From a virus, in the IMG/VR virus record IMGVR_UViG_3300036768_001393, positions 1 through 45,876 of that record: 45,876 nucleotides of DNA; one strand, 5' to 3'. This document shows positions 24,844-28,124 of this stretch, piece after piece. Every line of letters starts with the position of its first letter. Positions within the stretch are counted from its first letter, which is position 1. A program made the translations under genes and the position numbers. Under the pieces are notes generated by a model, which searched no databases, was not told the DNA's origin, and was given only the letters and a program-made list of their open reading frames with translations.

Positions 24844-25212
24844 TCACACGGGCGGCGGAATCTCCTCGAGCTTCACGCCGGAATCCAGGATCAGGGCCAT
24901 CTTCGCGGGCCCGTGCGTCTCCTCGGAGATCGTCTTGCCGACCGTCAGGCGCACGGTGCGCCCGTACAGGTAGATCGTCTTGGCCTCGACCACGCGGTAC
25001 CACTTCGGGCGCACCGCGCCGACCGTGGACGGCGGCGGGGCCGGGGGCCCCTTCGTGTCGGGCGCGTCGGGCGGGGGCTGGGCGGGCTCGTCGCCCTTGG
25101 CCTCGACCGGCGGCTGCTCGCCCGGCTTCACCGACGCGGCCTCGAGCGGGTCGGGCGCGGGCGAGGCGAGGGCGAGGAGCTTGCTCTGCTGCTTGTTCTG
25201 CGGTCCGGCCAT
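24844..25212 (-). CDS. Pro-rich head protein, decoration-like or linker
   Basis: 122 aa from ATG 25212 with AGGAG in front. The first 70 residues are Pro/Glu/Ala-rich and flexible; the last 45 form a beta domain (PKWYRVVEAKTIYLYGRTVR). It is the first gene after the structured RNA stretch, whose closing helix ends about 15 nt before this ribosome site. A role in the head is inferred from position. Confidence 0.65.
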   Translation of the reverse strand: MAGPQNKQQSKLLALASPAPDPLEAASVKPGEQPPVEAKGDEPAQPPPDAPDTKGPPAPPPSTVGAVRPKWYRVVEAKTIYLYGRTVRLTVGKTISEETHGPAKMALILDSGVKLEEIPPPV

Positions 25213-25240
25213 GTTGGTCACTCCTCCGATAGGGTGCGGC

Positions 25241-25725
25241 GAAGGGCGGCACACCCGTCTGCACCAGTTTTACGTCGAGATTATCGAGCCGACGAAGACC
25301 CGAAGGTCAAGCTCGCGTGGTGCTCGTAGAGTGCCGCCCTTCAGGCCAGTCGACAATGGCGAACCCGAAGGATGCCTTAGAGGCGACGTGATGCCCATAC
25401 CGCGGGAACGAGGCGCGAACCCAAGCCCGGAGGCTGGGGTTGCGCCGGAAACCCGACCCTTGGCAAGGTTCACGACCGGAGTCGAAAACGAGGAGTCGGG
25501 GAGACTGGGAACCGCTTGCCGGAGGTTCCAGATAGAGCCACGAGGGCTTCTACAGTCGGTTGCGGGCCCAGGTGTCGCACCTGACTTCCCGGGGGTATGG
25601 GCCCCGGTTGGTCCTGGACCGCCCGCACAAGCGGGCTCGGGCACCGAAAGCTGCGCGCACCCGACAGGGAGGGTGGAGGCCCCGCCGTCTACACGCAGCT
25701 CTCGATGCCCGGACCCCCGCATGGG
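25241..25725 (-). ncRNA. Candidate large structured RNA between capsid gene and next head gene
   Basis: About 485 nt with no coding character. Perfect helices tile nearly all of it: 25241-25252 with 25331-25342 (12 bp), inside it 25261-25266 with 25318-25323, then 25285-25289 with 25311-25315, then 25297-25300 with 25305-25308. The last is GACC-UUCG-GGUC on the minus strand. A second C(UUCG)G hairpin is at 25358-25376. A 14-bp hairpin is at 25412-25446. A three-way junction is formed by 25452-25457 with 25495-25500 enclosing 25458-25468 and 25473-25484. More hairpins are at 25508-25529, 25569-25583, 25589-25607 and 25621-25636. An outer pair 25638-25643 with 25706-25711 encloses 25649-25655 with 25694-25700. 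The UUCG loops favour the minus strand, the sense of the operon. Function unknown. Confidence 0.65.
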
Positions 25726-27138
25726 TTAGGCCCCGTGCTCGATGACCTGGAACCGCTTGAAGCGGCTCGAGTCGCCGACCGCCGCGTCCGTGCGCACCGG
25801 CCAGTCGCCCATGAACTTCCAGGACGTGGAGACCATGTCCTGGAGGCGGTTCAGCGGCTGGCGGATGATGAGCTGGATGCGCTCGCTGAACACGTCGATC
25901 CCGTTGTTCGAGATCCGCGCGTCGGCCACCTTGCCGGCGATGCCGGCCTCGGTGATCAGGGCCATCAGGTCGGCGTAGTACTCGAACACGCCGCCCTGCG
26001 CCGTGAAGAGGATGCGGTGGATGCCCACGCCGGTCGAGGTGCCGTCGTGGGTCAGCTCGCCCGCGAACGGGTCGTCCTGGCTGAACGGGATCGTCCCGGA
26101 GGTCATGCCGCCCACGACCGTCTCCCGCACCGGGCACTCCGAGTTGCGGTAGAAGACCGTGTTGAGCAGCTCGCCCAGGGCGAACTGCCGGTACATGTAG
26201 TAGTCCGGCAACGCGGTCAGGAGCCGCTGGAACTCCTGGTCCTGGAAGATCTTCGCCTGGGAGATCGGGTCGATGTGCGCGTGGAACCGGCCGTCCGCGT
26301 GCTCCGGCACGTTCTGCTGCCAGAAGTGCGAGACCGCGTCGCGGATGTCCGCGAGCGTCGGGATGTCCGACGCGCTGATGTCGTCGACCTTGTTGCCGCC
26401 GCCCGAGCGCGTGATGTACGTGCGGTCCACGGCCAGCACGTAGGCGCGGTTCGCGACGCTGGTGGTAGGCGCGCCCAGGGTGAGCACGCCGGGACCGACC
26501 TCGTCACCGGGGGTGTCGGGCGTGTACCCGATCACGGTGTTCGTGACCTCGGCGCCGTTGTCGTAAATCGTGATCGTGAGCGGGTTCGAGGACGAGACCG
26601 GGTCGAACCGCACCTGGCTCGCGCCCGACACGTTCGGGTTGCGCGCCCGGGTGAAGCCGTTCAGGCGCTTCACCCGGAGGCGGGTCGTGGCCACCGCCGC
26701 GCCGTCCGCCACCGTGTGGCCGGAGAGCGCCGCGTTGTACATGCGGTTGCGCACCATGCGGTTCAACGACATCGCCGCCTGGAGCCCGAGCTGATGCGCG
26801 TTGCGCAGGAACAGGGACGCGATGGCCGTCATGTCCGAGGGCATGTGCGTGTCGATCGTGTCCGCGTACTGGTTCATCTGCGCGACCCACTGCTCGATCG
26901 GGTAGGACTTCGGGGTCGGGTCCTCGCCGGGGCGCAACGCCCGCATGTTCGGCTGCATCAGACCAGGCGCGCTGAAGATCTGGCTGTCGCCGACCCCAGC
27001 CTGCCACGGCTGCGGCGTCGCCTCCCCGCGGAACAGGAGCCGCGGGAAGAGGGCGTCGTGGAAGGCGCGCTCCAGGATGTTCTCCTGAACGATCGCGCGA
27101 ACCTGAGGGCTCTGGAGGATTACGCTGAAATCGGCCAT
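25726..27138 (-). CDS. Major capsid protein
   Basis: 470 aa. Starts DFSVILQSPQVRAIVQENIL and contains blocks (IEQWVAQMNQYADTIDTHMP; FHAHIDPISQAKIFQDQEFQ; HRILFTAQGGVFEYYADLMA) as seen in HK97-fold capsid proteins of large-genome groups. It follows a scaffold-like gene and precedes connectors. Size is normal for the main shell protein. A spacer of 89 bp upstream contains TTGGCG and TAGTGT at 18-bp spacing, a weak local promoter candidate. Confidence 0.75.
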   Translation of the reverse strand: MADFSVILQSPQVRAIVQENILERAFHDALFPRLLFRGEATPQPWQAGVGDSQIFSAPGLMQPNMRALRPGEDPTPKSYPIEQWVAQMNQYADTIDTHMPSDMTAIASLFLRNAHQLGLQAAMSLNRMVRNRMYNAALSGHTVADGAAVATTRLRVKRLNGFTRARNPNVSGASQVRFDPVSSSNPLTITIYDNGAEVTNTVIGYTPDTPGDEVGPGVLTLGAPTTSVANRAYVLAVDRTYITRSGGGNKVDDISASDIPTLADIRDAVSHFWQQNVPEHADGRFHAHIDPISQAKIFQDQEFQRLLTALPDYYMYRQFALGELLNTVFYRNSECPVRETVVGGMTSGTIPFSQDDPFAGELTHDGTSTGVGIHRILFTAQGGVFEYYADLMALITEAGIAGKVADARISNNGIDVFSERIQLIIRQPLNRLQDMVSTSWKFMGDWPVRTDAAVGDSSRFKRFQVIEHGA

Positions 27139-27227: not shown

Positions 27228-28124
27228 TCAGAAGCGGTACGAACCGTTCGGGCTCGTGTACCCACGCTCGGCCAGGAGCTTCTGGAATTCCTGCGGCGTG
27301 AGCTTCATCGCGTCGATCGCGCCGTTCCCGTTGCCCTTCTCCTGGGCGTTCGGGGTCTTCGGAGCGGTCTTGGGAGCCGGGCCCTCCGCCGTCTTCGTCG
27401 GGGCACCGGTGCTCGCCGGGCGCTCCTCCACGGCGAACAGGTACGGCCGGCTCTCGCGCAGGTTGCTGAAGAACTTGGACTCGTCGAAGTTCTTGAGCTG
27501 CTCCGCACTCTTGCCACGGACCTCCTGCTGGAGCAGGTGCATCGCGAAGTCCACGTCCTGCACGCCCGACCGCACGGCCGCGATGCGCAGGGCCATCTCG
27601 GCCTCCTTCGCGTCGAGGGCGCGCTGGAGCGCGAGGCGCTGCTTCTTCTCGTACGCCTGTGCGCGATTCAGCTTCTTGCGGTCCTCGAGCAGCTTCTGGT
27701 TCTGCCGCTCGAGCTTGGCCAGGTACCGCGGATGCTGCTTGCGGGCCGCGTCGCGCTCGGAGCTGGTCTCGACCACCTCCTCCTGCTCGGCGTCCCGACC
27801 CGGCCGCTTGGTCCGAGCGTCGCGCGCGGGACGCTCGGTCCGGACCGGGCTGGCGTTGCGCGCCTTCGCCCGCGCCGCGGCGGCCTTCAGGTCCTCGTAG
27901 TTCTTGAACCCGAGGGCCCGCGCCTCCGCGTTCAGCTTCTCGAGGGCCTGCTTGCTGCCGCGCTCGCGCTCCTCCTGCTTGATGCGGGCCATCACCGAGG
28001 TCGGGATGGTCAGCACCTTCTTCTCGACCGTCCGGGCCTCGGCAGCCGGGGGCTGCTCGATCACGTCCTGGGTGGCCTCGGTCTCTTCGCTCTGTCCGTT
28101 CGTCTCGTCGATCTCGGGGGGCAT
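27228..28124 (-). CDS. Capsid scaffold-like protein
   Basis: 298 aa. Acidic N-terminus, a long coiled coil (about 115-190, YLAKLERQNQKLLEDRKKLN), an Ala/Pro/Lys linker, and a short C-terminal helix (LTPQEFQKLLAERGYTSPNG). This is the typical build of an assembly scaffold, encoded just before the capsid protein. No protease motif was seen. Confidence 0.7.
   Translation of the reverse strand: MPPEIDETNGQSEETEATQDVIEQPPAAEARTVEKKVLTIPTSVMARIKQEERERGSKQALEKLNAEARALGFKNYEDLKAAAARAKARNASPVRTERPARDARTKRPGRDAEQEEVVETSSERDAARKQHPRYLAKLERQNQKLLEDRKKLNRAQAYEKKQRLALQRALDAKEAEMALRIAAVRSGVQDVDFAMHLLQQEVRGKSAEQLKNFDESKFFSNLRESRPYLFAVEERPASTGAPTKTAEGPAPKTAPKTPNAQEKGNGNGAIDAMKLTPQEFQKLLAERGYTSPNGSYRF

Follow-up and report, generated by a model that had tools for sequence, protein, structure and literature searches.

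A conserved pseudoknot-bearing non-coding RNA between the capsid gene and its downstream neighbour in the head operon of uncultured contractile-tailed phages

The locus described here raises the question of what a phage keeps in several hundred non-coding nucleotides of its head operon, directly behind the gene for its major capsid protein (MCP; gene mcp). In the window, by which we mean the whole 45,876-nt stretch of DNA that was analysed (a 45.9-kb phage record), the head genes all lie on the minus strand and follow one another as a scaffold-like gene (27228-28124), mcp, a gene called here the next gene, n2, and n3. The gap that a first-pass annotation had noticed between two of these structural genes is real: mcp stops at 25726, the ATG of the next gene is located at 25212-25210, both on the minus strand, and the sequence between them is non-coding (Table 1). 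At 66% GC and spanned by an open frame, the gap might also be regarded as a GC-rich spacer or as a real gene of 150 aa. The latter was rejected because the frame shows no codon-position signal, with GC contents of.66/.68/.65 at the three positions vs about.65/.46/.96 in real genes (third-position GC was.94-.97 in the 7 head, tail, and portal genes checked), and because tblastn detected no homologue of it in any of the relative loci fetched. A conserved reading frame in the interval, which the first-pass annotation had named as grounds for abandoning an RNA, is thus excluded.

Table 1. Features of the RNA-bearing gap and its flanking genes, in window coordinates
Feature	Position	Strand	Basis or remark
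mcp (major capsid protein, 470 aa)	25726..27138	-	PHROG 1357 major head protein, E 9e-7; directly upstream of RNA
Structured RNA region, mcp stop to next-gene start codon	25213..25725	-	z -6.3; same-place non-coding region and covariation in relatives
Spurious 150-aa ORF over RNA	25270..25722	-	Flat codon-position GC, no homologues
Long GC-rich 5' hairpin right after mcp stop	25639..25710	-	Fold; similar hairpins in many relatives, sequence not conserved
GCCCGC/GCGGGC hairpin	25621..25636	-	Fold; alternative partner in the first-pass annotation 25561-25567
Module X: helix CCCGACUC/GGGUCGGG (25493-25500 with 25452-25459), inner hairpin, 3' bulge ending UUGCCAA	25452..25500	-	Hand-curated
Core: GGCGC-AACC-CC-AGCC(loop)GGCU-U-GG-GUUC-GCGCC	25412..25446	-	Divergent form of consensus GCAAACCC-(hairpin)-UGGAACCGC; top R1 match
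Pseudoknot arm: 12-13-bp stem UGAAGGGCGGCAC/GUGCCGCCCUUCG, second short helix, pseudoknot cap	25240..25343	-	Top R2/R3 match; covariation 0/500
H-type pseudoknot	25273..25314	-	S1/S2 compensated variation in 40 phages; enrichment over shuffles
3' strand CGCCGCACC of probable domain-closing helix	25233..25241	-	Family consensus GCYRCCAC, often followed by U-rich tract
GGAGGAG ribosome site and ATG of next gene	25210..25227	-	
Next gene (122 aa)	24844..25212	-	Disordered Pro/Ala-rich N-terminus and ~50-aa beta domain

The operon-sense strand of the gap folded to -252 kcal/mol vs -211 +/- 6.6 in dinucleotide shuffles (z -6.3; 0 of 100 as low), and the opposite strand gave a z of -3.0; the comparison with shuffled controls, which had been proposed together with the suspicion of a structured RNA, accordingly turned out in its favour. 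Among the helices that had been named, the 12-bp stem (25331-25342 with 25241-25252) and the 14-bp hairpin (25412-25446) are present as written and correspond to conserved modules of an RNA family, while two C(UUCG)G loops were located in the operon sense as described. The minimum-energy fold also contains a long, nested, multi-branched part, which fared worse, being without comparative support and in competition with the conserved core hairpin. As a model of the window RNA, the minimum-energy fold, in which the core is mispaired, was set aside in favour of the comparative evidence; when most of the comparative helices were imposed, the resulting fold lay 11 kcal/mol above the minimum, one imposed stem (AGCC/GGCU) having been assigned to the wrong copy. 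In its variable 5' third, the fold of the window RNA is tentative.

Regarding relatives of this locus, searches of IMG/VR with the MCP yielded more than 100 loci, and 95 regions downstream of mcp were compared after the removal of duplicates. Most of these relatives, to which the MCP of the window is 54-72% identical, have a non-coding interval of several hundred nucleotides at the same place, and the intervals share little sequence similarity with the window, that of locus L005 excepted. A recurrent motif, seen by eye, consists of a helix enclosing GCAAACCC, a small hairpin, and UGGAACCGC. Across this group of phages, all of which are metagenomic, the RNA measures approximately 350-600 nt and is composed of three modules in a fixed order, namely, module X, the core, and the pseudoknot, at the same place and on the same strand in MCP-related IMG/VR phages.

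The association with capsid genes was also found without reference to them. The core was written as a DNA pattern and scanned through 2.9 million viral contigs irrespective of genes, and the stricter pattern, for which the list of hits is complete, gave 51 matches, 50 of which were in the mcp/next-gene context. The nearest searched gene was mcp upstream and the next gene, n2, or n3 downstream in 44 of the 51, and in 6 this held on one side only, the second neighbour not having been found. The single remaining match, which lies inside an apparent coding sequence and misses the hairpin, was discarded as chance. MCP identity to the window among the scan matches reaches down to 41%. Relatives negative for the core were searched for a displaced RNA (16 records or genomes), which yielded two sub-threshold partial matches. 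Against cultured phages, blastn of the RNA found no match, and the gap is absent from those with distant MCPs, Kromp (31%) and phiKX1 (24%). Relatives of the MCP in bacterial and archaeal genomes amounted to 2 matches only. One of the two (L232, 62% identity, contig PMZA01000066.1) is assigned to an Armatimonadetes MAG of fen origin, and that genome is without a core match; this provides a weak hint of an Armatimonadetes host and is possibly a binning error.

The core was assessed in a MAFFT alignment of 40 relatives from which the window and L005 were left out. Paired bases occupied 91.9% of the cells, 111 cells were changed on both sides, and the covariation score was 0.546 vs 0.133 in shuffled alignments and at most 0.135 when slid, with 0 of 500 shuffles as high. 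While the bases of its helices vary freely, GC-AAAC-C / G-GAACC-GC is almost invariant. The core of the window itself is divergent, the consensus internal loop being largely replaced by pairs (AACC/GGUU). Module X, which rests on manual curation of 28 phages and is therefore the least rigorous of the modules, lies 5' of the core and the pseudoknot wherever these were compared, and consists of a helix, an inner hairpin, and a 3' (UA)CGCCAA bulge ending in GCCAA or similar. A hairpin with a CUCGGUC loop recurs in the 5' half of many members (e.g. L061, L069, L081, and L131), between module X and the core. Since the CGGUC of this loop is complementary to GACCG in the pseudoknot, a competing or kissing interaction is possible.

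An H-type pseudoknot is present at the tip of the long arm in 40 phages, including the window, for which the pairs were picked partly by complementarity. In the window, S1 joins GAGC (25311-25314) with GCUC (25286-25289) and S2 joins CGUCG (25290-25294) with CGACG (25273-25277); across the phages, S1 appears as CCC/GGG or as variants that include GAG/CUC and GCG/CGC, and S2 as CGGUC/GACCG, CGAUC/GAUCG, CACCGU/ACGGUG, and others. The first pseudoknot loop is short (1-4 nt) in all but the window, in which it is enlarged by an extra UUCG hairpin. As a control for complementarity-based picking, a pseudoknot finder without sequence bonuses was applied with a score cut-off of 8; 24 of 41 real regions reached this value, compared with 6.6% of shuffles and 2 of the 41 control regions taken from mcp. 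The arm, S1, and S2 together had 90 double-changed cells vs 38.5 in shuffles (0/500) in a sequence-only MAFFT alignment (n=29), and a fitted alignment (n=36), which leans towards structure, gave 142 vs 44.5, with the arm and S2 covarying (0/500). A probable domain-closing helix (GGUGGC/GCCACC and variants) is visible by inspection in many members, and its 5' strand in the window, at about 25400-25405, pairs weakly.

The membership of the window in this family was examined with models from which it had been left out, R1 for the core (also without L005) and R2 and R3 for the arm and S2. In the whole window, the best match of R1 was 25408-25450 on the minus strand (17.8 bits, E 0.02), and that of both R2 and R3 was 25231-25346 on the same strand (E 0.17 and 0.022, respectively). 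These E-values are rough and modest for 46 kb, and both sites are in the right 500-nt gap, strand, and order. When other loci amounting to 466-528 kb were scanned, matches of the arm models below E 1 fell in RNA regions only, and core-model matches below 0.01 were likewise in RNA regions. The covariation among homologues that had been called for was found in the core as well as in the arm and S2, and the earlier view of a structured non-coding RNA without a recognised family is supported by this covariation, seen in dozens of relatives, and by an empty Rfam search; the pseudoknot and the near-invariant internal loop, by which the family is defined, had escaped the first-pass annotation. The reading as a chance or coding artefact, already at odds with the folding energy, the homologous RNAs, and the absence of a coding signal, is refuted by the covariation and is hardly credible. 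Judged from sequence comparison, the gap of the window almost certainly holds a genuine conserved structured RNA. In this clade of uncultured phages with contractile tails, the head operon encodes a conserved non-coding RNA with a pseudoknot, always in sense and placed behind mcp and ahead of the next gene.

Of 87 MCP loci, at least 51 were found to carry the RNA, the deepest ingroup branches of a quick MCP tree among them. Another 11 loci, which fall into about three subclades, are too compact to accommodate it, the median distance from mcp to n2 being 428 nt vs 874, and 25 of the 87 were not assigned as RNA-bearing or RNA-less. This distribution fits an old RNA that may have been lost several times, the number of losses being uncertain. 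Loci L016, L018, L190, L202, L207, L213, L214, L222, L223, and L227 belong to close MCP relatives whose mcp is directly followed by the next gene or by n2, and they represent natural deletion mutants for comparison.

Considering its strict synteny and its fixed position before the ribosome site of the next gene, we tentatively favour, at somewhat short of an even chance, the view that the RNA acts in cis as an element of the late head mRNA and sets downstream expression relative to the capsid. The RNA would act within the polycistronic message, in which a rigid pseudoknot-capped 3' domain and an elaborate body behind the mcp stop may separate the capsid cistron from the downstream ones, so that the capsid message would be protected or ended and downstream translation restrained. 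A putative head protein or other ligand would be recognised via the near-invariant core loop and the GCCAA bulge, and the ratio of capsid to minor protein would be set during assembly. Synteny and strand were the same in 50 of the 51 capsid-blind matches, and the pseudoknot is close to the ribosome site of the next gene, 28-60 nt separating the end of the arm/pseudoknot from it in most of the 39 cases measured. Genes for HNH endonucleases, named by eye from translations as was a dCTP-deaminase-like gene, are inserted between mcp and the RNA in L054, L151, and L113 or after the next gene in L010, L172, and L176, and no insertion was seen inside the RNA or between it and the next gene; the two consequently stay together in the cases seen. 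An HNH-endonuclease-like gene on the mcp-RNA side is also present in L195, and the dCTP-deaminase-like gene occurs at the HNH site of L113.

Several findings stand against a role in cis. Conserved sequestering of the ribosome site of the next gene was not found, its predicted accessibility being variable; the size of the RNA and its near-invariant loops exceed the needs of most translational operators; and, since several subclades have lost the RNA yet keep both neighbouring genes, control by it must be dispensable. The next gene is also poorly conserved (24-33% protein identity). Its product, present with or without the RNA, has a Pro/Ala-rich linker and a confidently predicted beta domain of ~50 aa, for which no significant structural match was obtained.

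A message-bound RNA might alternatively have no specific partner and, as a 3' UTR, stabilise or terminate the mcp message passively. In agreement with this, a long hairpin immediately follows mcp in the window and in many relatives, and many members have a short U-rich tract behind the 3' domain; however, such a role leaves the near-invariant unpaired bases (GCAAAC/GAACCGC and GCCAA) and the covarying pseudoknot unexplained, and no terminator was found in the RNA of the window, which makes it improbable. The hairpin is terminator-like in L061 and L144, in which it is followed by a U-run just after the mcp stop and before the RNA, suggesting read-through or a separate RNA promoter in those phages. 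We attach a similarly small probability to a self-processing ribozyme or mobile-intron remnant separating the cistrons. Although the pseudoknot, the near-invariant internal loop, and the repeated insertion of HNH genes nearby would suit it, no Rfam model of group I or II introns or self-cleaving ribozymes matched, no gene is interrupted, most copies are without a nuclease gene, and the position is fixed.

The main rival of cis action, which we regard as possible if somewhat unlikely, is a trans-acting structural or assembly RNA that would be cut from the late transcript and accumulate with the capsid protein as a scaffold, a head-assembly cofactor, or a cage-like RNA, such as the homo-oligomeric RNA-only cages shown for GOLLD and ROOL. 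Its multi-module architecture and near-invariant loops are kept while MCPs diverge to about 41% identity, it is encoded beside the gene of the most abundant head protein, and a conserved 3' part with a variable 5' part has been described for GOLLD (PMC12286853). However, it was never found away from the mcp/next junction, unlike GOLLD and ROOL, no promoter is recognisable within the window, and some subclades have lost it. That it is released from the late transcript as a trans component of the head, which would make it part of a head-assembly system of protein and RNA in myophages that has no relation to phi29 pRNA, appears unlikely. Dozens of diverse phages have retained the RNA at the junction of the genome that is expressed most highly, and it would be a new way for phages to set the ratio of capsid to minor head protein if it acts in cis and an RNA taking part in head building if it does not.

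The window and 18 family loci were compared with Rfam (4,227 families) at gathering and relaxed thresholds, and no family matched; models of miRNAs and sRNAs gave chance matches far below their cut-offs. The first-pass annotation had recognised none of GOLLD, ROOL, or pRNA, and the search agreed with it. No earlier report of such an RNA was found in the literature searched, which lay mostly outside subscription journals and preprints. On this basis, the RNA family is probably undescribed and a new kind of phage RNA, a claim of novelty that covers the family and not its function.

In phi29, the pRNA links the gp16 ATPase to the connector (PMC6765105), and the capsid-side RNA resembles the pRNA as a phage-encoded folded RNA of a tailed phage, beside head genes and with a suspected head function. 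A pRNA-like packaging cofactor is nevertheless very unlikely because the phage has a canonical large terminase (TerL, PHROG 38, E 7e-64); moreover, the Rfam models of phi29 pRNA did not match, and relatives with the same head genes lack the RNA. Its location between head genes is a further difference. Pseudoknot operators are closer to the favoured role in cis. The autoregulatory mRNA pseudoknot of rpsO, the gene of ribosomal protein S15 (rpsO is named in PMC3014915), is likewise an operator controlling translation in an operon, but is far smaller, and no ribosomal protein gene is found beside the capsid-side RNA. In T4, gene 32 controls its own translation through a pseudoknot situated 67 nt ahead of the start codon (PMC3014915), which may serve by analogy as a precedent for cis action, an H-type pseudoknot lying upstream of a ribosome site in phage mRNA in both. 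The operator of gene 32 is a small pseudoknot with an unstructured A+U-rich stretch behind it, whereas the capsid-side region comprises about 350-600 nt and several modules between cistrons; no such stretch was seen between its pseudoknot, which caps a long GC-rich arm, and the ribosome site, the short U-rich tract of many members being all that follows.

GOLLD and ROOL are phage-encoded RNAs of hundreds of nucleotides with an elaborate fold, often near tRNA islands, ROOL having pseudoknots and GOLLD a conserved 3' part and a variable 5' part (PMC12286853). Their covariance models matched neither the window nor the 18 family loci at the gathering threshold or a relaxed E. Although the capsid-side RNA differs from both in its lack of an Rfam match, in its fixed place between mcp and the next gene, and in the absence of tRNA genes from the window, it resembles them in its length of hundreds of nucleotides and its elaborate fold, sharing a pseudoknot with ROOL and a conserved 3' and variable 5' part with GOLLD.
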